From the NCBI GenBank assembly GCA_028287785.1, contig JAQBOZ010000008.1, forward strand, positions 1-44,936: DNA of 44,936 nucleotides, in the 5' to 3' direction. The stretch comes from Chlorobiota bacterium (GTDB lineage: Bacteria; Bacteroidota; Ignavibacteria; OLB7). A model generated the notes under the pieces. The model was not told the DNA's origin. It saw nothing but the letters and a program-made list of their open reading frames with translations, and ran no database searches. How positions within the stretch are numbered: the first letter of the stretch is position 1; the number at the start of each line of letters is the position of its first letter. Of this stretch, positions 1 through 42,748 are shown one piece after another. The position numbers and the translations under genes are program-made.

Positions 1-2235
1 GACATCGCCGTCGGCGTCGTAGTCGGCAGCGACGACGCAGGAGCCGCTGGTGGTTTCCTCGGGGAGCGCGCCGACGGCCTTGGTGAAGTGTCCCTTGCCG
101 TCGTTCAGATAGAGCCGGTCCTGGAGCTCGGGGGAATCGACGAAGTATTCATTGCCGCCGGAGACGACGTAGAGGTCGAGATCGCCGTCGCCATCGGCGT
201 CGAAGAAGACGGCGCCCATATCCTCGGATTCGGCATCGGCGCTGAAGGCGGCGGTATCCTTCGAATCGACAAATCGCCCGGCCTGCGTCTGGAAGAATAT
301 TCTGCCGGGAAACCCGCGCGCGTCACCGAGATAGAGATCCTCCAGCCCATCCCCGTTGACATCGCCGACGGCGGCGCCCGGCCCAAGCTGCGAGAGGCGA
401 TGCGGCAGCAGCCGCTCCTGCTTCAGATCATCGAACGTGTTTTCGCTATGCCTGTAGTCGATGATCTTCGCGATATCGGGTTCGGTGAAGACCGGCACCA
501 CGGGCTTCGGCGGGACAATTCCCTTTCTGGATGCGTTGGTCTGCTTCAGCGTGATCGTCTGGTTGGGCCTGACGTTCGTCAGGATCTGCCGCGCTCCGCC
601 GGGCCATGTCACCGTAAGCTCATCGATCACCGTATCCTGCCCGACGCCGAACACCAGCAGCGGCTCGGTGGTGGACATGTAGCCCTTCGACTGGAAGTTG
701 TCCTGCATCTGGTACTTGCCGTTCGCCTTCAGCTCAACCCTGGCCCCCACGCCGAAACGATTCAGCCCGTTGCCGTCGAACTTGATCCGGAGATAGTTGC
801 CGAGATGGTCCTCCACGGCGTGATTCCGGTAGATGAAGGAGACGGAGTCCATGTTGCTGATGATAAGATCGAGATCGCCATCCTGATCCAGATCGGCATA
901 GATGGCGCCATAGGCATAGGTCACCTGATCGACCCCCCATTCATGCGAGACCTTTGTGAAGGTGAGGTCGTGATTGTTCCTGAACGCGTAGTGGGGAAGG
1001 CGGAGCGTTCCAAGGCGTTTGGTGATCTCCAGCCGCGTGCCGACCTGATCGACGCGATAGTTCGTATCCTCGTTGCTCAGATTTCGTCGCATGCCGTTGG
1101 CGACATACATATCCTTGTAGCCGTCCAGATCGAAATCGCCAAGGAGCAGGCCCCAGCTCCAGTCCGTGGATGTGACGCCGGCGAACGGCGCGATATCGCT
1201 GAAGTAGCCGCCACGGTTCAGGTGGAGGACGTTCTGCGCCACCTGCGTCGAATCGAAGACCGGGCTGAGGCGCGATGGTGAGGTTGGAAGGGTGATCTGC
1301 CGGAGGCGATCCTCCGGGAGCATGTCATCGACGAAGATATCGGCCCAGCCATCATTGTTGTAATCGGCGATATCGCTCCCCATCGATGAGTTGCTGGTAT
1401 GCCCCATCACCTTGTTGTTCGCCAGGGTGAATGTCCCGTCCCTGTTGTTCAGATAGCAGCAGTCCGACGCGTCGAAATCGTTGCTGATAAAAATATCGGG
1501 ATAGCCATCGTTGTTAAGGTCCCCGACCACCACATTGTTGCAGTAACCGGCATCGGTGATCCCCGCCTGCTTCGTGACCTCGGTGAACTTCCCCTTTCCG
1601 TCATTCCGGAACATCTTGTCGTTATCCCCCCAGCGCGCATAGTAATCCCCCACGGCGTTGCCGGTCAGCCCCAGGTACATATCGAGATCGCCGTCGTTGT
1701 CGTAATCGAAGAACACCGCGTGGGTGCTCTGCCCACGGTAGTCCAGCCCGTACTTCTTCGCCTGATCGGTAAATGTTCCGTCGCCGTTGTTGATGTAGAG
1801 AAAGTTGGGGCCATTGATCCGGCAGACATAGATATCCAGATCGCCATCGCCGTCGATATCGACCATCGCCGCTCCGCGCTCCACGTAGCTGGAGTCCAGC
1901 ACCCCCGCCTTCTTCGAAACATCCTCGAACTGGAAATTGCCGCGGTTCAGATAGAGCCTGCTGCCGACATGCGTGCTCGGAAAAAAGATATCCGGGAGCC
2001 CGTCCCCGTTCACGTCGCCGACGGCGATGCCGTTGCCGTTGTAGGCGTTGGTGTAGGAGAGCGCGTTATAGCTCTCCGTCTCGTGCACTATGTTGGTGAA
2101 CCAGACATGAGTTGTATCCGCGGGGAGGAACTCGAACAGTGGGTGCGATGGAGGATCGGGATGCTGGGCATGGGCCGGGACGCAGATCCCGACGAGAAGA
2201 AGCAGAACATACCAACGATATGAAAATCCCGTCAT
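1..2235 (-). CDS. Secreted FG-GAP/VCBS-repeat protein with ASPIC/UnbV domain (3' end beyond window)
   Basis: This frame is open from ATG at 2235 through position 1 (745 codons) with no stop, so the C terminus lies outside the window. The N terminus is a signal peptide: a short hydrophobic segment (YVLLLLVGICVP) followed by AHA-Q, a good signal peptidase I site near residue 24. Many calcium-loop-like repeats follow, such as GDVNGDGLPDIFF, DIDGDGDLDIYV, DYDNDGDLDMYLG and DLNNDGYPDIFIS, which predict a beta-propeller. Around residues 485-565 comes an ASPIC/UnbV-like segment (NRFGVGARVELK, then DELTVTWPGG and PNQTITLKQ), after which FG-GAP repeats resume to the edge. This matches the CRTAC1-like family common in Bacteroidota and related phyla. 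It is probably exported or surface-bound, and its substrate is unknown. Long plus-strand frames opposite it are shadows. Confidence 0.9.
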   Translation of the reverse strand, partial: MTGFSYRWYVLLLLVGICVPAHAQHPDPPSHPLFEFLPADTTHVWFTNIVHETESYNALSYTNAYNGNGIAVGDVNGDGLPDIFFPSTHVGSRLYLNRGNFQFEDVSKKAGVLDSSYVERGAAMVDIDGDGDLDIYVCRINGPNFLYINNGDGTFTDQAKKYGLDYRGQSTHAVFFDYDNDGDLDMYLGLTGNAVGDYYARWGDNDKMFRNDGKGKFTEVTKQAGITDAGYCNNVVVGDLNNDGYPDIFISNDFDASDCCYLNNRDGTFTLANNKVMGHTSNSSMGSDIADYNNDGWADIFVDDMLPEDRLRQITLPTSPSRLSPVFDSTQVAQNVLHLNRGGYFSDIAPFAGVTSTDWSWGLLLGDFDLDGYKDMYVANGMRRNLSNEDTNYRVDQVGTRLEITKRLGTLRLPHYAFRNNHDLTFTKVSHEWGVDQVTYAYGAIYADLDQDGDLDLIISNMDSVSFIYRNHAVEDHLGNYLRIKFDGNGLNRFGVGARVELKANGKYQMQDNFQSKGYMSTTEPLLVFGVGQDTVIDELTVTWPGGARQILTNVRPNQTITLKQTNASRKGIVPPKPVVPVFTEPDIAKIIDYRHSENTFDDLKQERLLPHRLSQLGPGAAVGDVNGDGLEDLYLGDARGFPGRIFFQTQAGRFVDSKDTAAFSADAESEDMGAVFFDADGDGDLDLYVVSGGNEYFVDSPELQDRLYLNDGKGHFTKAVGALPEETTSGSCVVAADYDADGDV

Positions 2236-2470: not shown

Positions 2471-2527
2471 AGGGCGCGCGGGGCATCGCACCGCGCACCA
2501 GGGATTGCGCCCCTCCGGGGCTTGAGA
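2471..2527. repeat. Family A palindromic repeat, single copy
   Basis: This copy carries the two family A modules: a GCGCGGGGC...GCGCACC arm, then CAGGGATTGCGCCCCTCCGGGGCTTGAG (2498-2525 region). The second module is the reverse complement of the CAAGCCCCGGAGGGGCGCAAT module seen at 28263 and 31851. It sits directly downstream of moeA on the minus strand. Translations of such copies give spurious peptides resembling APGIAPLRGLK. Confidence 0.8.
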
Positions 2528-2558
2528 AGGTTGTTCCGCATCTGTCAACGGGCTGGCG

Positions 2559-8345: not shown

Positions 8346-9521
8346 TCATTGCGCAAGATAAGAACGAACGGCTTCCCGCGTTCGTTTATCAGCCTCGAAG
8401 ATATTTTCCAGCGACGGCTCATCGTCGATCCGGGCCTCGCCAAGGGCTCGCTCGATCAGCCTCGGAATGTCGTTAAAAGCGATGGTTCCCTCCAGAAACG
8501 CCGCAACCGCCACCTCGTTCGCGGCGTTCAGCGTGGTCGGGGCGGTCCCTTTGCGGTCGAGCGCCTCGTAGGCCAGGCGGAGGCAGGGGAAGCGCGCGGG
8601 GTCGGGGGGGGAAAACGAAAGCGATCCGATGGTCGCCAGGGAAAGCCGGTCGAAATCGTTGATGATCCGCTCGGGATAGGCCAGCGCGTACTGGATCGGC
8701 AGGCGCATGTCGGGAAGCCCAAGCTGCGCCTTCACCGATCCGTCGATAAACTGCACCATCGAATGGATGATCGATTGCGGATGGATCACCACGCCGACCT
8801 TTTCACGTTCCACGTCGAAGAGCCATCGCGCCTCGATCACCTCAAGCCCCTTGTTCATCAGCGTCGCGGAGTCGATGGTGATCTTCGGCCCCATGGTCCA
8901 GTTCGGGTGCTTCAGGGCGCGTTCCAGGGTGATGCTGGCGAATTCCTCCGCCGGCAGATCGCGAAACGGCCCGCCGGAAGCGGTCAGGATGATCTGCTCG
9001 ATCGCCTCCGGTTGCTCTCCCACCAGGCACTGGAACACCGCGCTGTGCTCGCTGTCCACGGGAATCAGCGTTGCGTGATGTTCCTTCAGCAGCCGGTTGA
9101 TCAGCTCCCCGGCCACCACCAGCGTCTCCTTGTTCGCCAGCGCTATCCGCTTGCCGGCCCGGATCGCGGCCACCGTCGGCGCAAGCCCGGCAAAGCCGAC
9201 CAGCGCGCTCATCACGGTGTCGATTCCGGGACGCGCGACCACATCGCACAGGCTTTCCTCTCCCTCCAGCACCTCCACGCGATCGCCGTAGAGCTTCCGG
9301 GCAACCGAGGCGGAGCAGGGGTTGGAGACCACCACGGTATCGGGCCCGAACTCCGCGATCTGCGCGCCGAGCAGTTCCACGTTCCCGTTCGTCGTCAGGC
9401 AGGCCGCCCGGTAACGGTCGGGATTGCGGCGGATCACGTCGAGCGTCTGCGTTCCGATCGACCCGGTCGAGCCGAGGATTGCGATCTGCTGCAATTGTAT
9501 GGGCATCTGTTCCGGGCTCAA
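8346..9521 (-). CDS. dxr: 1-deoxy-D-xylulose 5-phosphate reductoisomerase
   Basis: Dxr converts DXP to 2-C-methyl-D-erythritol 4-phosphate with NADPH, the committed step of the MEP isoprenoid pathway. The NADPH motif GSTGSIGTQTLDVI is near the N terminus. The metal/substrate motifs ANKETLVVAGE, PVDSEHSAVFQCL, TASGGPF, HPNWTMGPKITIDSATLMNKGLEVIEA (read in pieces) and HPQSIIHSMVQF all match. I use the TTG at 9521, which overlaps the rne stop (TTGA) and has GGAG five bases upstream. ATG 9506 is a shorter alternative (386 aa) that begins closer to where other Dxr proteins begin. Coupling to rne is likely. Confidence 0.95.
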   Translation of the reverse strand: MSPEQMPIQLQQIAILGSTGSIGTQTLDVIRRNPDRYRAACLTTNGNVELLGAQIAEFGPDTVVVSNPCSASVARKLYGDRVEVLEGEESLCDVVARPGIDTVMSALVGFAGLAPTVAAIRAGKRIALANKETLVVAGELINRLLKEHHATLIPVDSEHSAVFQCLVGEQPEAIEQIILTASGGPFRDLPAEEFASITLERALKHPNWTMGPKITIDSATLMNKGLEVIEARWLFDVEREKVGVVIHPQSIIHSMVQFIDGSVKAQLGLPDMRLPIQYALAYPERIINDFDRLSLATIGSLSFSPPDPARFPCLRLAYEALDRKGTAPTTLNAANEVAVAAFLEGTIAFNDIPRLIERALGEARIDDEPSLENIFEADKRTREAVRSYLAQ

Positions 9522-12500
9522 CTCATCTCCACTTCGCGGATTTCCCTCGCGTCCCGCTTCTCCCGCTCCTTGTCGCGATCGCGCTCCTTTTCCTTCACCT
9601 TCGGCTCGTTGATGAACTTGTCGGTGATATCCGCCTGCTGGCGGAGGGAGAAGAAGTGGAATTCATCCACCGGAAGCGATTCATCGAGAACCACCTTGAC
9701 CCGGACGAAATACTTCAGCATCAGTTTCGTGAGCCGGCTCGGCGATCCCTCGGTCAGATAATCGATGATCGTCGGGTTTGCCGTCAGCGTCAGACGGAAC
9801 TCCCGCGATCCCTCCTTGAAGCGCGCCAGCCACCGCTCGATATTTCTGATGACGGTGCTCTTGGACTGCACAAGGCCGCTGCCGGCGCAGACCGGGCATG
9901 GCTCCGAGATGGTCTGCACCACCTGCTGGCGGATGCGCTGGCGGGTCATCTGGACAAGCCCGAACTGGGTCATCGGAAGGACCACGGATTTGGCGCGATC
10001 CTTCTTCATCTCCCGTTTCAGCTCATCGTACACTTTCTTCCGGTTCTTTTCATCGTACAGATCGATGAAGTCCACCACGATCAACCCGCCGATATCGCGA
10101 AGGCGGATCTGCCGCGCGATCTCCCTTGCCGATTCCAGGTTGGTCCGCAGGGAGTTCAGCTCCTGATCCTTCTTTCCGGCGTAGCGGCCGGAGTTCACGT
10201 CGATCACCATCATCGCCTCGGTCTGATCCAGGATGATGTAGCCGCCGGAGGGGATGTAGGTTCTCCGCTCGGAGATCTTGTGCAGCTCCCGCTCTATGCC
10301 GAACTGATCGAAGATCGGCTTGGCGCCGGAATAGAACTCCACCTTCTCCACGAGCTGCGGCGCGGCCCATGCCACGTAATCCCGGATCTCCTTGTAGAGC
10401 GCCTTGTTGTCGATCACCACCCGGTTTGTGTCGGGGGTGAACAGATCGCGCATCACCGTGTTGGCGATCGACTGATCCTTGTACAGAAGGGATGGGCCGT
10501 TGGTCTGCTTGATCTTCTGCTCCACCTCCCGCCAGTTGTCGATCAGCATGGTGAGATCCTGCTTGATCACCTCCTCATCCTTGTCCTGCGCCACGGTCCT
10601 GATGATGCAGCCGTAGCCCTCCGGCAGAATGCTCTTGGCGATCCTGCGGAGACGGCGACGTTCCTTCATCAACTGAACCTTGCGGGAGATGCCGATCGAT
10701 GGATCGAGCGGCAGAAGGACGAGGAAGCGTCCCGGCAGGCTGACCTTCGTGGTGACGCGGACGCCCTTCGAGGCGTACGATTCGCGCGTCACCTGGACGA
10801 TCACATCCTGTCCCTTCTCCAGCGCGATCGTCACCTCGCCCGAGCGCTTCGTCTGGAACGTCGGCAGCTTCGCGTCGACCGTCGGGCCTTTCACCGGCGC
10901 GTCGGCACTATCGTCCCCTCCGCGTTTGCCGCCACGCTGCGGCCTCCGCCGCGCCGATGGCTTCTTTGCCGCGCCTTCCTCGGAAGCCGGTTGTTGCGGC
11001 TCCGCCTGCGCGGGCTCCGGCGTGGCCGGTGCTTCGGCGCGCGGCTCGGCGGTTTCCTTTGTCTTTCCACGTCCTCCGCCCCTGGCGGGACGCGCCCGGC
11101 GCGGGCTTTTCTCAGTATTTGCGGGTGCCTCCTCGCGGGGCGCTTCGGCCTCGGCGGGTGCCTCGGCTTTTGCCGGAAGATCGCGACGGCTCGTCTCCCT
11201 GTTCCGGCGATCCTCCTTCAACGGGCGATCCTCGCCGCGAGTTCCCGGCCTGTAGGTATCCTCGTGCGACAGCTCGGCGGGGCGCTGCTCCGCTGCCGGC
11301 GCTTCAGCGCGCGGCTCGGCCGCTTCGCCCTCGCGACGCTCGCCACGAGGCCGGTCGCGCCGGTCGCCTCTCCGGTTGTTCCGTCGGCCATCGCCCCGTT
11401 CGTTGCCGGCCGCCGCTCCGGTTTCCGAGCCTTCCTCGCGTCCACGCGCCTCCGGTGCGGTGCGCTCATCCCGCTCGCGCCGGTCATCCTGCGATGATTC
11501 GCGATCGTCCGATGGCCCCTCGTCCGATACGCGATCGTCGTGACGATAGCGCTCCCGCTCGCGGTCGCGGCTCCGCTCGTTTCTCCGCTGATCGGATGAA
11601 AGCGACTCGTTCCCCGATGCTTCGCTGTCTTCCCGGCGACGTTCCGGTTGTGCGTCATCGGCGCGGTCATCGCGACGGCGGTCGTCGTTGACGTTCCTGG
11701 GGCGGTCATCGCGGCGGCGGTCGTCGGCTGGTTTTTCGGTGCGGTCATCGCGACGACGGTCATCCGCGGGCTTTTCATCGCGGCGACGGTCGTCGGCTGG
11801 TTTTTCTGTGCGGTCATCGCGACGGCGGTCATCCGCGGGCTTTTCATCGCGGCGACGGTCATCGCGGCGGCGGTCGTCTGCTGGTTTCTCGGCGCGGTCA
11901 TCACGACGGCGGTCATCCGCGGGCTTTTCGGAACGGTCATCACGACGGCGGTCGTCTGCTGGTTTCTCGGCGCGGTCATCGCGACGGCGGTTCTCCGGTT
12001 CCCTTGCGGGGCGATCGTCCTGCGCGCGATCCTCGGGCTCCGATGCCTCTCCATCCTGCGATTCCGTCTGATCGCTTCCGGCCTCCCCTTCCTCGCCGCC
12101 ATCGCGACGGCGGTTCCTGCCGCGACCTCCGCGACGGCCGCGCTTGCGGCGACGCTTCCGCTGCTCCTCCTGCTGCTCCGGCGTGCCACCCTCGATGGCA
12201 TCGACATCGCCTGTTTCGGTCTCCTCCTGGTCATCCTCCCGGTCCATCTTCGCCACAGGTTCCTTTTCGGCGCGTGGGGGGGGCTCCTTCTCCCGGCGGC
12301 TCTGATCGTTGCGGTCGCCACCACGACGGTTGCCGCCGCGTCCCCGGTTCTCCTCGGCCGGGACATCCTGCGCCGGGCGCTCCTCGGCCGGCTCGGGCTG
12401 AACGGCTCCATCGGTTTCGGGGCGACTCTCGGCGCGATCCCTGCCGCCATCGCGTCGATCGCGTCCGCCGCGCCGGTCATCGCGACCCTGGCGACGATCG

Positions 12501-13045
12501 CCGGAGCGTTCATCGCCGGCACGCCCGTCGCGTTCGCGCGGGGTGGGGGCTGCCGTTGCATCGGAATCGGTAGCGGTGGGTTGTGAATCTTCCTCGACGC
12601 GCGGCTGCGGCGCATCCTTGCGCGGGGCCCGCTCGCGGTCGCGGGCTGGTTTGCCATCGCGTCCGCGACCCTGATCGCCGCGTCCACTCTTCTTATCATC
12701 GGTGGATGCCGGGGCGCGGGCTTCTACTTTCTTATCCTTATCGCCGGATTCGGCGGCATCATCCTCGTCGTCATCCTCATCATCTTTTTCGTCGAGGAGG
12801 TCCTTGAATTCATCCATTGCCGATCCGACATCGGAGAAATGGAGGAACGCATCCTGCGTTTCGCCGATGCTGACGAACGCGGCGTTCATCCCCTGGACGA
12901 CGCGTTCGACGCGTCCCAGGTAGATAGAGCCCACATGGCGCTCCTTATCGGGAACTTCCAGGAAAATTTCAGCGAGGCGGTCGTCTTCGGTTATCGCAAC
13001 CCGGATCTCAGTGGAGGTTGCGTTGATGATAATTTCTTTCTTCAT
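9518..13045 (-). CDS. rne: Ribonuclease E/G with a very large insertion inside the S1 domain
   Basis: The protein is 1175 aa from ATG 13045 (MKKEIIINATSTEIRVA), the usual N terminus of the family. The in-frame TTG at 13072 is less likely. Residues 1-75 are the first half of an S1 RNA-binding domain (IYLGRVERVVQGMNAAFVSIG, FLHFSDVG). The second half (GQDVIVQVTRE, GVRVTTKVSLPGR) resumes only near residue 740. Between them are about 650 charged, low-complexity residues with Arg/Asp-rich tandem repeats. The catalytic core is intact: MVIDVNSG near residue 947, VVDFIDLYD, and the CPVC zinc-link, ending like the family. It would process and degrade mRNA and mature rRNA/tRNA. The insertion is probably a disordered binding or scaffold region (inference). 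Confidence 0.93.
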   Translation of the reverse strand: MKKEIIINATSTEIRVAITEDDRLAEIFLEVPDKERHVGSIYLGRVERVVQGMNAAFVSIGETQDAFLHFSDVGSAMDEFKDLLDEKDDEDDDEDDAAESGDKDKKVEARAPASTDDKKSGRGDQGRGRDGKPARDRERAPRKDAPQPRVEEDSQPTATDSDATAAPTPRERDGRAGDERSGDRRQGRDDRRGGRDRRDGGRDRAESRPETDGAVQPEPAEERPAQDVPAEENRGRGGNRRGGDRNDQSRREKEPPPRAEKEPVAKMDREDDQEETETGDVDAIEGGTPEQQEEQRKRRRKRGRRGGRGRNRRRDGGEEGEAGSDQTESQDGEASEPEDRAQDDRPAREPENRRRDDRAEKPADDRRRDDRSEKPADDRRRDDRAEKPADDRRRDDRRRDEKPADDRRRDDRTEKPADDRRRDEKPADDRRRDDRTEKPADDRRRDDRPRNVNDDRRRDDRADDAQPERRREDSEASGNESLSSDQRRNERSRDRERERYRHDDRVSDEGPSDDRESSQDDRRERDERTAPEARGREEGSETGAAAGNERGDGRRNNRRGDRRDRPRGERREGEAAEPRAEAPAAEQRPAELSHEDTYRPGTRGEDRPLKEDRRNRETSRRDLPAKAEAPAEAEAPREEAPANTEKSPRRARPARGGGRGKTKETAEPRAEAPATPEPAQAEPQQPASEEGAAKKPSARRRPQRGGKRGGDDSADAPVKGPTVDAKLPTFQTKRSGEVTIALEKGQDVIVQVTRESYASKGVRVTTKVSLPGRFLVLLPLDPSIGISRKVQLMKERRRLRRIAKSILPEGYGCIIRTVAQDKDEEVIKQDLTMLIDNWREVEQKIKQTNGPSLLYKDQSIANTVMRDLFTPDTNRVVIDNKALYKEIRDYVAWAAPQLVEKVEFYSGAKPIFDQFGIERELHKISERRTYIPSGGYIILDQTEAMMVIDVNSGRYAGKKDQELNSLRTNLESAREIARQIRLRDIGGLIVVDFIDLYDEKNRKKVYDELKREMKKDRAKSVVLPMTQFGLVQMTRQRIRQQVVQTISEPCPVCAGSGLVQSKSTVIRNIERWLARFKEGSREFRLTLTANPTIIDYLTEGSPSRLTKLMLKYFVRVKVVLDESLPVDEFHFFSLRQQADITDKFINEPKVKEKERDRDKEREKRDAREIREVEMS
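11650..12010 (-). repeat. In-frame tandem repeat inside rne (39-bp-class units)
   Basis: About eight to nine imperfect units encode the consensus DRRRDDR(A/S/T)EKPAD, typically 13 residues (39 bp), with some units shortened to 10 residues or lengthened to 15. They lie in the S1-domain insertion of RNase E/G, roughly residues 345-465. Because units are nearly identical at the DNA level, copy number is likely to vary by slippage or recombination. The reading frame is kept in every unit. Confidence 0.85.
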
Positions 13046-13431
13046 GGATCGATGAATGAGCCCATGAACCAAGTCGGCGAAGACGGGAAGGAAGCTGGAG
13101 GAATACGGCAGGCGGGGAGACTAATCGAGGTGGATGCGTCCAGAGTGAGGTAACAGATGGATACAAGAACTGTCCTGAGCAGCGGTTCCGGTCCTGGAAT
13201 GGAGCGGAATACCGTATGCTGCCGGTACCGCGATGTGAGTCAATATGCTGCACGAATCCTTCCGGCGTGGCCGGCGCGAGTGCGAGTCCGTCGGTGTCGC
13301 GCAGGCATTCGATCTCCAGAGAGAGATCGAGCGCGCGAATCACCGTGCTCAGCATCAGGCGCAGTGCCGACCAAAGGGCGCCGAAAAGTGCCACGGGCGG
13401 TGGGCTTAAAAAATAAAAAAGAGGCCAAGCT
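13046..13431 (-). other. Long leader region between ffs and rne
   Basis: About 385 nt separate the SRP RNA from the RNase E/G start, with no credible gene. On the minus strand a T-rich tract (13420-13408) comes just after the SRP RNA and may mark its 3' end. A 7-bp hairpin (CGATCTC 13310-13316 with GAGATCG 13323-13329) lies further on. RNase E mRNAs of other bacteria have long regulatory leaders, so autoregulation is possible here, but nothing in the sequence proves it. Confidence 0.4.
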
Positions 13432-13513
13432 GATCTGTATCGCACCGTATCATTACTGACCGCTGCTTCCTTCCGGACCTGACGGGATTGGGTATGATAC
13501 GGCCGCACAGGAC
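13432..13513 (-). ncRNA. ffs: Signal recognition particle RNA (small bacterial 4.5S type)
   Basis: On the minus strand the conserved apical region reads GTCAGGTCCGGAAGGAAGCA, followed by GC. This is the Ffh-binding helix 8 with the symmetric and asymmetric internal loops and the GGAA tetraloop. It is enclosed by a perfect 9-bp stem (CCGTATCAT, 13502-13494, with ATGATACGG, 13453-13445). Outer pairing of CTGT with ACAG suggests an RNA of about 80 nt. Exact ends are estimated. It pairs with Ffh to deliver membrane proteins to the translocon. A strong promoter-like sequence lies about 30 nt upstream. Confidence 0.93.
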
Positions 13514-13542
13514 TTGACCCCAAAACTTTCTGAATTATTGGA

Positions 13543-16730: not shown

Positions 16731-17035
16731 GTAGTGACTCAGTTTGAATCCAGCCCTCCGTTTGACATCGTCATCATCCACCAACGATTCTCTGATCACT
16801 CTTCAAGCTCCATCAGGAGCGCGCCGGTTGTAGCAACGATACCTCCGTTTCCCACGCAAGCTCCATCGGAGCGTACCATTCTGCCGGCATGCGAGGATGG
16901 TACGCTCCGATGGAGCTTGGATTACGGAAGGCGTGGTGATACTACAACCGGCACGCCCCGATGGGGCTGGGAAGCCAGATGCTCTCCAAGATTTCGGGCA
17001 TCATGAACCTCGCGCCCCAAAGTGAGTCGTCACCC
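16731..17035. repeat. Family B long palindromic repeat, copy 1
   Basis: The element opens with GTAGTGACTCAGTTTGAATCC and closes near AAAGTGAGTCGTCACC, so the ends are roughly inverted (TGACTC/GAGTCA). At its centre two 23-nt arms (16857-16879 and 16897-16919) are perfect reverse complements of the form CAAGCTCCATCGGAGCG... with a 17-nt loop. Further out, GCGCGCCGGTTGTAGCAACG is answered by CTACAACCGGCACGCC. No protein is encoded. It occupies most of the 550-bp gap before the SecD-like gene. Confidence 0.85.
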
Positions 17036-19183: not shown

Positions 19184-19234
19184 CGCGTGCGGGATTCTGC
19201 CCCGCGCCGAATGCCGCACCCCCTCCGTGGCCTG
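19184..19234. repeat. Family A repeat, degenerate copy
   Basis: CGCGTGCGGGATTCTGCCCCGCGCC is followed by CACCCCCTCCGTGGCCTGA. This matches the family A order (TGCGGGGC...GCCCCGCGC, then GCCCCTCCGGGGCTTGA) with several changes. It starts immediately after the stop of the hypothetical gene. Confidence 0.55.
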
Positions 19235-19325: not shown

Positions 19326-19610
19326 GTCCCCCGTCCCCCTGAACGATCATCGATCCCTTCATCACTCTTCAAGCTCCAGAGGAGCGCGCCGGTTGTAGCA
19401 ACGATGCCTCCCTTTCCCGCTCAAGCTCCATCGGAGCGTACCATTCTTCATGGGTGGGGGATGGTACGCTCCGATGGAGCTTGAGATCACAAGAGGCGTG
19501 GCATTGCTACAACCGGTACGCCCCGATGGGGCTGGGAAGGCGGTGCCGGATGCTCTCCATGATTTCGAGCCGTATGAACCCCACCCAAACCGAGTCACCC
19601 CCTCCAATCA
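19304..19610. repeat. Family B long palindromic repeat, copy 2
   Basis: This copy has the same plan as copy 1: GTAGTGACTCATGTTGAATCC at the left, GCGCGCCGGTTGTAGCAACGATGCC, then perfect 24-nt arms (19421-19444 and 19461-19484), GGCATTGCTACAACCGG, CGCCCCGATGGGGCTGG, and GAGTCACCCCCTCCAATCA at the right. The last 19 bases (19592-19610) repeat 19285-19303 exactly, so the unit is flanked by a 19-bp direct repeat. The ISAs1-family element begins at the next base. Confidence 0.85.
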
Positions 19611-22533: not shown

Positions 22534-22556
22534 CCCCTGCCTCCCCTGAAAACCAC

Positions 22557-22585
22557 AGCGGCCGGGGATACCATCCCCGGCCGCT
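22557..22585. terminator. Bidirectional terminator between the ArsB-like gene and clpX
   Basis: AGCGGCCGGGGAT (22557-22569) pairs perfectly with ATCCCCGGCCGCT (22573-22585), a 13-bp GC-rich stem with a three-base loop, between two converging genes. On the minus strand, GTGGTTTTC follows the stem. On the plus strand only a weak AT stretch follows. It probably serves both transcripts. Confidence 0.8.
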
Positions 22586-22613
22586 GCCATAAATCTCCGA
22601 AACCACCCCGCCG

Positions 22614-26563: not shown

Positions 26564-26644
26564 TGCGGATGGAGGGACTCGAACCCACACGCCTTGCGGC
26601 ACCAGTTCCTAAGACTGGAGTGTCTGCCATTTCACCACATCCGC
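26564..26644 (-). tRNA. tRNA-Leu (anticodon UAG)
   Basis: The minus strand reads GCGGATG at the 5' end and CATCCGC-A at the 3' end (7-bp acceptor stem). The anticodon arm is CCAGT-CTTAGGA-ACTGG (anticodon TAG), and GTGGGTTCGAGTCCC gives the T arm. The variable arm (TGCCGCAAGGCGT) is long, as expected for a class II leucine tRNA. The length is 81 nt. The CCA end is not encoded: CTA follows the discriminator base. Confidence 0.96.
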
Positions 26645-26853: not shown

Positions 26854-26991
26854 TCGGCTCGACGATAGTTCAAAACAGGCTTTCGGCGGCGCGATCGGCG
26901 ATTTGCCCCCGTCCGGGGTCTCCCGATCGGCCCCATTCGCCGATCCGTTCTTCCATGCGCCTTCCGGCGCCCATTCCGGATGTCCCTTCCG

Positions 26992-28170
26992 ATGACCGTT
27001 CCATTGCTCGATCTGAAGGCCCAGTACGCTTCGCTGAAATCGGAACTGGATGCCGCGGTGCTTCGCGTGGCCGCCAGCCAGTACTTCATCCTTGGCCCGG
27101 AGGTGACGCGGCTGGAGCGGGAGATGGAGGAGTATCTCGGCGTGAAGCACGCGCTGGGGGTAAGCTCCGGCACCGACGCGCTTCTGCTGGCGCTGATGGG
27201 GCTTGGGATCACGGCGGGGGATGAGGTGATCGTCCCCACCTTCAGTTTCTTCGCCACGGCCGGCGTCGTCAGCCGTCTGGGGGCGCGTCCGGTCCTGGTG
27301 GATATCGATCCGCTCACATTCAATATCGACCCCGCGGCGGTGGAACGGGCCATCACGCCGCGAACAAAGGGGATTGTCCCGGTGCATCTCTACGGGCAGA
27401 GCGCCGCGATGGCGCCGCTGATGGAGATCGCCGGCCGGCATGGAATCGCGGTGATCGAGGATGGCGCGCAGGCTATCGGCGTCCGCGATGCCGACGGGCG
27501 TCGTGTCGGGGGCATCGGCACGGTGGGATGCTTCAGCTTCTTCCCCTCCAAGAACCTGGGCGCGTTCGGCGACGCGGGGCTGATCACGACCAACGATTCC
27601 GAGTTGTACGAGCTGATGCGGATCATGCGCGTCCACGGCGGCGAGCGGCGCTACTACCATTCGGTGATCGGCGGCAACTTCCGCCTCGATGAGATCCAGG
27701 CGGCGGTGCTGAACGTGAAGCTCCCCCACCTGGATGCCTGGAGTGAGGCGCGCCGCCGGAATGCCGCGCGCTACAACGAGCTGTTCGAATCGCGCGGGCT
27801 GAGCGAAGGCCCCGGCCGCATCGCGTTCGACGAGAAGAACCGTATTCTGACTCCGGCGGCCGTAAACGAGGCGGCGGGGGTGCCGGACCACCATATCTTC
27901 AATCAGTATGTGATCCGCTCCGAGCGGCGCGATGAGCTGAAGGCGTGGCTTACCGAGCGGGGAATCGGCAACGAGATCTACTATCCGGTGCCGTTCCACA
28001 TGCAGGAGTGCTTCAGCGATCTGGGCTACCGCCAGGGGGATTTTCCCGAGGCGGAGCGGGCCGCGCGCCAGGTGCTTGCCATCCCGGTCTACCCGGAGCT
28101 GACCGACGAACAGATTCAGTATGTCGTTGATGGTGTCGCGGAGTTCTGCGCATGCGTGGCAGACTGTTGA
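26992..28170 (+). CDS. DegT/DnrJ/EryC1-family sugar aminotransferase (1 of 3)
   Basis: This PLP enzyme would transaminate a keto-sugar nucleotide. The family opening VPLLDLKAQY, the SSGTDALLLAL phosphate-binding region, DEVIVPTFSFFATA, IVPVHLYGQ, IEDGAQAIG (Asp near 157) and the PLP lysine in FFPSKNLGAFGDAG (Lys187) are all present. The end matches the IPVYPELTDEQIQYV family motif. ATG 26992 fits the family start. ATG 26980 adds four residues. The FFPSKNLG form resembles WbpE/WlbC-type enzymes acting on UDP-3-keto sugars, but substrate cannot be fixed. It is the first gene of the cluster. Confidence 0.92.
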   Translation: MTVPLLDLKAQYASLKSELDAAVLRVAASQYFILGPEVTRLEREMEEYLGVKHALGVSSGTDALLLALMGLGITAGDEVIVPTFSFFATAGVVSRLGARPVLVDIDPLTFNIDPAAVERAITPRTKGIVPVHLYGQSAAMAPLMEIAGRHGIAVIEDGAQAIGVRDADGRRVGGIGTVGCFSFFPSKNLGAFGDAGLITTNDSELYELMRIMRVHGGERRYYHSVIGGNFRLDEIQAAVLNVKLPHLDAWSEARRRNAARYNELFESRGLSEGPGRIAFDEKNRILTPAAVNEAAGVPDHHIFNQYVIRSERRDELKAWLTERGIGNEIYYPVPFHMQECFSDLGYRQGDFPEAERAARQVLAIPVYPELTDEQIQYVVDGVAEFCACVADC

Positions 28171-28520
28171 AGGACACCTGCGCGGGGCGATGCCCCGCGC
28201 AGAAGCAATGACGCCCCGCTGGGGCTTGGGAGCGGGGCGGGAAATCCTGATGTATGTTCTTCAAGCCCCGGAGGGGCGCAATCCCTGGTGCGCGGGGCAT
28301 GGCCCCACGCAGGAGCAATGACGCCCCGTTGGGGCTTGGGAGCGGGACGGGAAATCCTGATGTATGTTCTTCAAGCCCTGGAGGGGCGCAATCTCTGGTG
28401 CGCGGGGCATGGCCCCGCGCAGAAGCTCTCCGTTGGGGCAGAAAATCCCGCTGTATTCTCCTCAAGCCCCGGAGGGGCGCAATATCTGTGCGTGGGGCCT
28501 GGCCCTGCGAGGAATCACAA
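28171..28520. repeat. Family A tandem array (110-bp period)
   Basis: TGCGCGGGGC blocks begin at 28179, 28289 and 28399 (exactly 110 bp apart) and a shortened fourth at 28489. Each unit holds a TGCGCGGGGC...GCCCCGCGCA hairpin, a CGCCCCGCTGGGGCTTGGGA module, a spacer (GGAAATCCTGATGTATGTTC), and CAAGCCCCGGAGGGGCGCAAT. Units 1 and 2 differ at few positions, so duplication is recent. It fills the gap between two aminotransferase genes. Some frames stay open through it, but the translation is repetitive and not credible as protein. Confidence 0.9.
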
Positions 28521-28535
28521 TCAAGTCCCGATAGT

Positions 28536-29660
28536 ATGAATGTTCCCTTTGTCGACCTGAAAGCTCAGTACCAGACGATCAAGCCGGAGATGGACGCGGC
28601 GATCGAGGAGATCATCTCCAACACGGCGTTTATCGGCGGCAAGGCCGTCAGGACGTTCGAGGAGGAGTTTGCGGCATACCTCGGCGTCCCGCATTGCGTG
28701 GGCGTTGCCAACGGCACCGAGGCGATCGAGATAGCCCTTCGCGCGCTGGGCGTCGGCCCCGGCGATGAGGTGATCGTCCCGGCAAATACATTTATCGCCA
28801 CGTCGGAGGCCGTCACCTCGGCCGGCGCCACGGTGGTCCTCGCCGACAGCGATCCCGATTATTATACGCTCGATCCCGAGGACTTCCGCCGGAAGATCAC
28901 GCCGCGCACGAAGGCGGTGATCCCGGTCCATCTCTACGGCCAGCCGGCGGACATGGACGCCATCACGGCGATCGCCCGCGAGCACGATCTGCTGGTGATC
29001 GAGGATACATCGCAGGCGCAGGGGGCCCGCTACAAGGGGCGGAGGGTCGGCTCGATCGGCGATGCCGGCACGTTCAGCTTCTATCCGGGGAAAAATCTGG
29101 GCGCCTACGGCGATGCCGGCGCGATCGTCTTCAGGGACGCTGCGGCGGCGCAGTTCGCCCGCACCTACGCGGGGCATGGAAGCATCGTCAAGTATCATCA
29201 TATCATGGAAGGACGCAACAGCCGTCTGGACGGGCTTCAGGCCGCCGTGCTGACGGTGAAGCTGCGCCATCTGGATGCCTGGAGCGATGCCCGCCGCCGG
29301 AACGCCGCGCTCTACACGGAGCTGCTGGCCGATATCGACGGCGTGACCGCGCCGAAGATCGCCGATTACGCGGAGCCGGTCTTCCATCTCTACGTGATCC
29401 GCCTCGCCGATCGCGAGAATGTGCAGAACCGTCTGGCGGAGCGGGGCATCTCCACGGCGATTCATTATCCCATCTCCATTCCATCGCTTGAAGCCTATCG
29501 CCATCTGGGGCATGCTGCGAGCGATTTTCCGGTCGCCAACGGCCAGATGGGAGAGATCCTCTCGCTGCCGATGTATCCCGAGCTGACCCCCGAGATGATA
29601 CGGTATACGGTCGCCGAGCTGCGGGAAGCGGTGGCCGCATCGAACCTGGTGGGGCAGTAG
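28536..29660 (+). CDS. DegT/DnrJ/EryC1-family sugar aminotransferase (2 of 3)
   Basis: A 374-residue PLP-dependent sugar aminotransferase. ATG 28536 begins the family opening MNVPFVDLKAQY. The frame stays open upstream only through repeat DNA. Motifs are [47 protein letters not shown] (Asp157) and the PLP lysine in [15 protein letters not shown] (Lys186). It is closer to the third copy than to the first ([10 protein letters not shown] in both). It may use dTDP-3-keto-6-deoxyhexose or another keto-sugar. The step it serves relative to copy 3 is unclear. The nearest upstream sequence is the family A array. Confidence 0.92.
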   Translation: MNVPFVDLKAQYQTIKPEMDAAIEEIISNTAFIGGKAVRTFEEEFAAYLGVPHCVGVANGTEAIEIALRALGVGPGDEVIVPANTFIATSEAVTSAGATVVLADSDPDYYTLDPEDFRRKITPRTKAVIPVHLYGQPADMDAITAIAREHDLLVIEDTSQAQGARYKGRRVGSIGDAGTFSFYPGKNLGAYGDAGAIVFRDAAAAQFARTYAGHGSIVKYHHIMEGRNSRLDGLQAAVLTVKLRHLDAWSDARRRNAALYTELLADIDGVTAPKIADYAEPVFHLYVIRLADRENVQNRLAERGISTAIHYPISIPSLEAYRHLGHAASDFPVANGQMGEILSLPMYPELTPEMIRYTVAELREAVAASNLVGQ

Positions 29661-31759: not shown

Positions 31760-31796
31760 GCTGATGCCTGGATCAATGTGCATGGGTTGTATCTCA

Positions 31797-31901
31797 TGCA
31801 GGAGCCGTGGCGCCCCGTTGGGGCTTGAGGACGGGAGGATCGTATCTTCCCAAGCCCCGGAGGGGCGCAATCCCTGCTGCGCGGGGCATGGCCCCGCGCA
31901 G
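31797..31901. repeat. Family A repeat, one full unit
   Basis: The order is the same as a unit of the 28179 array: TGCAGGAGCC, CGCCCCGTTGGGGCTTG, a 22-nt spacer that differs from the array spacer (GACGGGAGGATCGTATCTTC), CAAGCCCCGGAGGGGCGCAATCCCTG, then TGCGCGGGGCATGGCCCCGCGCA. It separates rfbB from the ketoisomerase gene. Confidence 0.88.
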
Positions 31902-31926
31902 ATCATGTACCGAGGATAGAGCCATT

Positions 31927-42168: not shown

Positions 42169-42748
42169 CCCGCCATCCGCCCATTCCGTATCGCCGGGGA
42201 GAACGATCTTTGCTTCGATGCTGTTGCTGGAGACGCTTCTGAAGCCGGGAAATGCTTCAAGGTCGAACCGCGATTTTCCCTCGCACGGGTAATGACCCGG
42301 TTTGAATCCAGCCGCTAATCTGCGGCGCGATCATCCATCGGCTCTTCATCACTCTTTAAGCTCCTGGGAGCGCGCCGGTTGTGGCAACGATGCTCCCATG
42401 TTCCCTTGAGCTCCGTGGGAGCGAACCATGCCCCCCGCATTCATGAAGAGCGGTACGCTCCGATGGAGCTTGAGATCATGAGAGAGGGGGCGATGCTGCA
42501 ACCGGTTCGCCCCGGCGGGGCTGGAACGGCTGATGTCGTTTCGTCGCGTCGCTGGTTCTGTTTGTCGTGTGTGCCGTACAATCCGGTCCCGCGCGGGCCG
42601 GTTGCGTGAGGCCGGCAAATCCATCGCACGACCCCGCTTGCATCGATTCGTTTTTTTTGTACCTTGTCGTATCCGGTGTCCAGATCCGGATCGATCCAGC
42701 GCCATTCCATCTCCAGGAAGTCCAACCGGGTGATGATACGATGTCGCG
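42169..42748. other. Intergenic region with family B copy 3
   Basis: Apart from the repeat at 42289-42530, the 580-bp gap shows no credible gene. A GC palindrome (CCGGTCCCGCGCGGGCCGG) and a T-rich stretch lie between the repeat and the next gene. Confidence 0.4.
42289..42530. repeat. Family B long palindromic repeat, copy 3 (diverged)
   Basis: GGGTAATGACCCGGTTTGAATCCAG matches the left terminus, and GAGCGCGCCGGTTGTGGCAACGATG, TTGAGCTCCGTGGGAGCG, GGTACGCTCCGATGGAGCTTGAGATCATGAGA (in parts), ATGCTGCAACCGG and CGCCCCGGCGGGGCTGG follow in the same order as copies 1 and 2. The two central arms are no longer perfect complements, and the right terminus is not recognisable. It is the oldest-looking copy. 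Confidence 0.78.

Follow-up and report, generated by a model that had tools for sequence, protein, structure and literature searches.

The array and its surroundings

The window analysed here is the whole of a contig (JAQBOZ010000008.1, our C32) of 44,936 nucleotides, from the 4.75-Mb genome of a Chlorobiota bacterium. Two co-directional genes for aminotransferases of the DegT/DnrJ/EryC1/StrS type are found at positions 26980-28170 and 28536-29660 (gene ends according to our own gene caller), and most of the gap between them is occupied by a repeat array. Three TGCGCGGGGC blocks begin at 28179, 28289 and 28399, with a spacing of exactly 110 bp; the fourth block, TGCGTGGGGC, is degenerate and follows at 28489, 90 bp past the block at 28399. 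Analysis with TRF gave the same period (110, with 92% matches and a score of 438), and the first two units are identical at 101 of 110 positions. The block coordinates and the TRF result thus bear out an earlier note on this DNA, which had described three blocks at an exact 110-bp spacing, followed by a shortened fourth. Folded as single-stranded DNA, the region 28171-28520 has a z score of -5.7 relative to shuffled sequences, none of 100 shuffles folding equally well.

Closer inspection of the unit upholds the exact period of the 110-bp array described in that note, but the array is an inverted mosaic and not a simple direct repeat. Its building block is a half-element of about 55 bp, designated family A, with the sequence TTCTCAA GCCCC-GGA-GGGGC GCAAT CCCTG GTGCGCGGGGC-ATC-GCCCCGCGCAC, in which a short hairpin, hp2 (CAAGCCCC-GGA-GGGGC-GCAAT), is followed by a long palindrome, hp1. 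The unit is composed as a BIME/REPIN-like mosaic, hp1-hp2'-linker-hp2-hp1, and the order along the array is hp1-hp2'-linker-hp2-hp1-hp2'-linker-hp2-hp1, such that alternating halves have hp1 in common. In hp1, 7 of the 11 base pairs display two-sided changes, a covariation score reached by none of 500 shuffles, which kinship among the copies may inflate; hp2 is invariant in this set because the copies were chosen by hp2. A covariance model identified ten strong family A halves in the window. The components of the array are as follows (strand in brackets where assigned):

28178..28202, hp1 palindrome of the first block (CTGCGCGGGGC-GAT-GCCCCGCGCAG); from the sequence and hp1 covariation
28176..28232 (-), half-element, hp2' GCCCC-AGC-GGGGC at 28213-28225 plus hp1; covariance model, 71.3 bits
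28258..28314 (+), half-element, hp2 GCCCC-GGA-GGGGC at 28265-28277, hp1 at 28288-28312; 74.7 bits
28286..28342 (-), half-element of the second unit, hp2' at 28323-28335, hp1 in common with the preceding half 28258..28314; 60.6 bits, linker 97% identical to that of unit 1
28368..28424 (+), half-element, hp2 at 28375-28387, hp1 at 28398-28422; 71.7 bits
28396..28439 (-), truncated half-element, where the third unit is shortened; 27.4 bits
28459..28514 (+), half-element that ends the array and includes the degenerate block TGCGTGGGGC at 28489; 51.7 bits

A second family A array of the same build, repeating about every 125 bp, is located on another contig (G000:C10:101736-102003). The linkers, 97% identical between units 1 and 2 of the window array, are 91% identical within this second array, compared to a median of 57% between loci; arrays therefore grow by local duplication, which is the source of the 110-bp period. 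Simple tandem duplication of unique sequence was rejected as an explanation, since the unit occurs throughout the genome.

Other repeats in the window

The remaining family A copies of the window are dispersed (E-values from 5e-25 to 5e-13 in the covariance model):

2472..2528 (-), single half-element; 74.3 bits
6753..6809 (-), single half-element; 75.2 bits
24934..24990 (-), single half-element; 68.0 bits
31776..31831 (-), left half of an inverted composite; 45.2 bits
31847..31903 (+), right half of the same composite (31776-31903); 82.5 bits

The first three correspond to single copies which the earlier note had placed at 2471, 6754 and 24935. Its fourth, at 31797, was also recovered, as part of the inverted pair at 31776-31903, whereas the degenerate copy it had proposed at 19184 is marginal (9.8 bits, E 0.12).

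A sister hairpin family, family B (CAAGCTCC-NNN-GGAGC-GTACCAT), appears in the window mostly in the form of inverted pairs and triplets:

16857..16919, inverted pair (CAAGCTCC-ATC-GGAGCG on both strands)
19370..19483, triplet (+,+,-)
42407..42472, inverted pair, left member imperfect

Several further features were also recorded. Between convergent genes at 22551-22590 there is a perfect, long GC-rich palindrome (GCGGCCGGGGATACCATCCCCGGCCGC) with a weak hp1 score and no hp2, and a tandem repeat with periods of 39, 69 and 84 bp (11627-12036) lies within a long predicted gene (9518-13045, minus strand). Rfam matches on the minus strand mark a bacterial small SRP RNA (13420-13519) and a tRNA gene (26564-26644).

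Distribution of the repeats in the genome

The family A hp2 pattern, GCCCYGNARGGGCGNNAT, has 151 exact matches in the genome, compared to none for the reversed pattern, and the wider pattern CAAGCYCCNNNGGRGC, which covers families A and B, has 424 matches, compared to two for its reverse. Most hp2 loci are singles; mosaics are also frequent, and inverted pairs and arrays occur.

The position of the repeats relative to genes was assessed in a 2.04-Mb sample of the genome, using our own simple codon-pair gene caller and not a standard program. Overlap with a predicted gene was seen for only 4 of 57 family A loci, as opposed to 46.8 expected (p 5e-35). All four lie within 60 bp of the gene edge, none of the 57 being found deeper, and none of 51 family B loci overlaps a gene. 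The copies are thus intergenic, as the earlier note had proposed from the window, and not scattered at random in and between genes, the outcome it had set against its own reading. The proximity to gene ends which it had reported also extends to the larger sample: in co-directional gaps, 29 of 36 family A loci are nearer to the stop of the upstream gene (p 3e-4), and few loci are situated in divergent gaps (4 of 53, compared to 26% expected; p 0.001). Its further claim, that most copies keep one orientation relative to transcription, did not hold. The 14 to 5 ratio of a first sample fell to 18 same versus 11 opposite in the larger one (p 0.26), and a fixed orientation to genes was consequently abandoned.

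Taken by themselves, the location near gene ends (29 of 36), the scarcity in divergent gaps and the strong covarying hairpins would suit regulatory RNA or DNA signals maintained by selection, for example mRNA 3'-end stabilisers, attenuators or protein-binding sites, the number of which would be set by function and not by mobility. The same placement is nevertheless expected from selection against harmful insertions, and the lack of orientation bias argues against such signals. In a search of the array for intrinsic terminators, the matches were weak 5-pair stems in the linkers and not the GC-rich hp1 or hp2, such that the array hairpins were rejected as terminators; no Rfam family covers the array. 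A DNA-level search of 40 related genomes, one of the same genus among them, did not find the elements. We consider a purely regulatory explanation of their number very improbable.

Transposase genes

The earlier note had likened the repeats to REP/BIME-type elements and had advised a search for a RAYT-like transposase. The resemblance is reinforced by the short palindromes, high copy number, intergenic location, inverted pairs and mosaic arrays, together with a Y1 transposase gene. A Pfam search revealed three Y1_Tnp genes in the genome, all listed here with their contigs:

G000:C36:160016-160459 (-), intact IS200-like HUH transposase gene (tnpA), 148 aa, single copy, outside the window
G000:C36:486311-486637, IS200-like transposase gene disrupted by two TAG codons in frame
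G000:C25, locus L033, at 1450-2187 (-), class 2 RAYT-like gene

The advised search did yield a Y1 (HUH) gene with an adjoining diverged family A copy, but the gene is not a classical RAYT. An inverted, diverged family A composite is situated about 115-205 bp upstream of the intact tnpA, on one side only and not in the usual bracket, and taken alone it is weak evidence of partnership. The intact protein contains DHVH and Y---Q--HH motifs, the latter reading YIERQKIHH, and scores as an IS200/IS605 TnpA. The Y---NP motif of the RAYT (TnpA_REP class 2) enzymes is absent from it. By motif and length it carries the signature of TnpA_Y1 subclass 1.2, to which we provisionally assign it. The conserved columns of the subclass are H55, H57, Y113, Q117 and H120/H121, the catalytic HUH and Tyr being retained, and Y---Q--HH is present in nearly all of the homologues read. 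One homologue belongs to Cytophaga aurantiaca DSM 3654, a cultured bacterium. The predicted structure (pLDDT 88) best matches the TnpA proteins of ISDra2 and IS608 bound to hairpin DNA, with the REP-associated transposase 4er8 lower among the matches.

The classical RAYT gene on C25 was rejected as a partner, as no CAAGCYCCNNNGGRGC hairpin of family A or B was detected in its fetched flanks; the same is true of the flanks fetched for the disrupted gene. The C25 open reading frame and its surroundings repeatedly contain a GAGxKPAPT-like stretch, which recalls a separate GGGTTTCAAACCCGC-type REP inserted both within the gene and around it. The GC content of the region that holds the disrupted gene (C36:486311-486637) is clearly lower, at 0.50 compared to approximately 0.61.

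Hairpins beside subclass 1.2 genes in other genomes

The association between hairpin and transposase was assessed using the following approach: (i) A first set of 39 homologous loci was assembled from named records of several phyla and from related genomes, and a strict motif (a perfect 5-bp stem, a GAA, GTA, GGA or GCA loop, then G) was chosen after these loci had been viewed. (ii) The motif was then frozen and applied to 25 further loci from a phylum-wide draw. (iii) A relaxed rule (any loop of 3-4 nt; hairpin no more than 130 bp from the gene and on the expected strand) was set after all 64 loci had been viewed.

Within 150 bp of the 39 genes, the strict motif occurs upstream in the sense orientation at 13 loci and downstream in the antisense orientation at 16. 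The opposite orientations account for two loci each, and the motif is present in 0.3% of control windows. In the 25 new loci, the frozen motif was found upstream sense in 6 (p 7e-9) and downstream antisense in 5 (p 3e-7), with one upstream and none downstream in the opposite orientations. The motif definition did not include the 3' foot GNNAT, and yet this foot recurred (A in 14 of 16, T in 12 of 16). By the relaxed rule, 52 of the 64 loci, which span several phyla, bear a hairpin on either side (control 10.7%) and 35 on both (control 0.8%). The other 12 are devoid of a hairpin even by this rule, and the motif is missing from most of the remotest subclass 1.2 members (about 30% identity).

In 200-kb samples of two relatives, the flanks of subclass 1.2 genes recur elsewhere, mostly as hairpin repeats; some of the matches in one of the two, G018, are coding. 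Nearly all Y1 matches in the relatives fall on subclass 1.2 loci, and viral contigs contained no homologues of the transposase. Among the 40 relatives, tnpA copy number correlates with hp2 excess (rho 0.57, p 1e-4), without a strict link between hp2 abundance and tnpA presence, as some genomes that lack tnpA show a modest excess. A core hairpin that brackets orphan ssDNA transposases in many bacteria suggests that such enzymes spread repeats.

It might be argued that the hairpins are the ordinary ends of IS200/IS605 elements and that families A and B are deletion derivatives of such an element, similar to MITEs or PATEs. The fold and family of the TnpA are indeed those of IS200/IS605, for which hairpins at the element ends are a trait (PMC8266576). 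Nevertheless, tnpA is single-copy in this genome, compared to 151 copies of hp2, and the tnpA paralogues within G018 and within G013 are at most 58% identical, so that no whole element is being amplified. Moreover, the flanking hairpins are mutually inverted, as in REPtrons, while IS200/IS605 elements do not have terminal inverted repeats (PMC2817692). Since no amplified element consisting of tnpA and its ends was found, an ordinary IS200/IS605 origin is judged unlikely.

Somewhat less likely still is that the repeats are spread or maintained by another system (the class 2 RAYT of C25, a DDE transposase that mobilises MITEs, or recombination by itself) and that the link to subclass 1.2 in this genome is due to chance. 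The further Y1 genes and the family A composites with inverted arms of about 50 bp would be compatible with such a system. Of these genes, neither shows the hairpin in its fetched flanks and one has two stops, and single halves and mosaics are frequent, unlike the fixed ends of MITEs. A chance link in this one genome would also leave the association across genomes unexplained.

Stem specificity

The stem sequence is specific to the genome and in part tracks the phylogeny of the transposase. The stem GTGCC is almost confined to three relatives (G013, G031 and G040), whereas GCCCY occurs in the present genome and chiefly in four others (G017, G018, G027 and G035). ATCCC is very common in G009, where it also flanks the tnpA gene. 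On the TnpA tree, in which many branches are unsupported, the stem type changes 14 times, compared to a mean of 20.6 for shuffled data (0 of 300 shuffles equally low); the signal is weaker when close duplicates are removed (1 of 300). Regular composites are found on contigs C35, C46, C61, C80 and C85 of G009, in which ATCCC and GCTCC stems oppose one another at distances of about 29 and 53 bp, as though a single element had two hairpin specificities.

Proposed mechanism

Family A is probably the non-autonomous, REP/BIME-like repeat in a system of the REPtron type, served by a TnpA_Y1 enzyme of subclass 1.2 (Y---Q--HH) that would mobilise it. The structure, copy number, intergenic bias and local duplication were observed directly, as were the hp2-like hairpins that bracket subclass 1.2 genes in many genomes. 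With slightly less assurance, we favor the broader proposal that subclass 1.2 drives a widespread class of REPtrons in several phyla, with untagged 5-bp hairpins that have a GNNAT foot and stems that coevolve with the enzyme, and that this subclass generated the hairpin repeats found in the present genome.

The following sequence of events is modelled on work with IS200/IS605 and TnpA_REP (PMC8266576); we infer the binding, cleavage and mobilisation, as well as the spread of family A by this tnpA and not by a lost relative. The hp2 hairpin (5-bp stem, loop of 3-4 nt and 3' foot GNNAT) would fold on single-stranded DNA and be bound by a TnpA dimer, which would cut beside the hairpin by means of Tyr113 and move or copy an inverted pair of half-elements to a new target. 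Insertions into genes and promoters would then be weeded out by selection, and some composites would expand in place through duplication into tandem mosaics, in this case with a 110-bp period.

Comparison with known systems

In the broad sense of REP/BIME, family A is palindromic, extragenic and present in high copy number, with alternating orientations and mosaics. REPtrons are likewise characterized by high-copy intergenic palindromes, inverted pairs and coevolution of the stems with the enzyme (PMC2817692, PMC3116915), and in Pseudomonas fluorescens SBW25 REPINs are known to form ordered tandem clusters in which the flanks are duplicated (PMC3116915). Family A shares with the REP/BIME/REPIN and RAYT systems these palindromes, pairs and mosaic or tandem arrays with duplicated flanks, the single-copy Y1 HUH gene and the enzyme-coevolving stems. 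A bracket of two inverted hairpins is seen in related genomes: it is present at 35 of the 64 homologous loci by the relaxed rule, and the genome studied here has the upstream composite only. In contrast to RAYT REPtrons, the enzyme is of subclass 1.2 (Y---Q--HH) and not of class 2 (Y---NP), and the half-elements bear a second, long palindrome, hp1. The GT(A/G)G foot of the classical GTAG REP was sought in hp2 and is not present, and there is no GTAG/GTGG head; the 5-bp stem is preceded by CAA and followed by GCAAT, the GNNAT foot at its 3' side. As both the GTAG tag and the class 2 motif are absent, the system is not a classical REPtron.

In the case of IS200/IS605 (IS608, ISDra2), the TnpA fold and family are the same and the best structural matches are found there, but in the present genome there is no amplified whole element, the flanking hairpins are mutually inverted in related loci, and dispersal is limited to the hairpin repeats. 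Among described systems that lack GTAG tags, the nearest is TIRYT/TIRtron (Di Nocera et al. 2013, PMC3733652), in which Y1 genes are also flanked by non-GTAG inverted repeats that include some double palindromes and are moderately repeated. The TIRYT proteins, unlike the present enzyme, were placed by Quentin et al. in subclass 2.1 and not 1.2 (PMC6006769).

Quentin et al. (2018) defined the Y---Q--HH proteins as subclass 1.2, without IS properties, and described REP-like structures for other classes only (PMC6006769). The present genes agree with that description in their Y---Q--HH motif, length of about 150 aa, low copy number and lack of evidence for an IS. They differ in that many of them are bracketed by inverted hairpins, the stems of which are repeated in the genome, whereas no REP was named for the subclass. 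A search of the open-access literature with six hp2 strings retrieved no paper, and an earlier report of a subclass 1.2 REP may exist.

Thus far, the spread of REPs has been ascribed to TnpA_REP enzymes of class 2, the substrates of which are GTAG-tagged hairpins. The new part in the present case is the transposase partner, and the most likely interpretation is a system that resembles a REPtron and is based on subclass 1.2. If this is true, the IS200 side of the family has also given rise to REP-type domestication, and an orphan class of enzymes gains a substrate which can be tested by an oligonucleotide cleavage assay. The varied stems and their matching enzymes would then represent a natural specificity code for an ssDNA nuclease.
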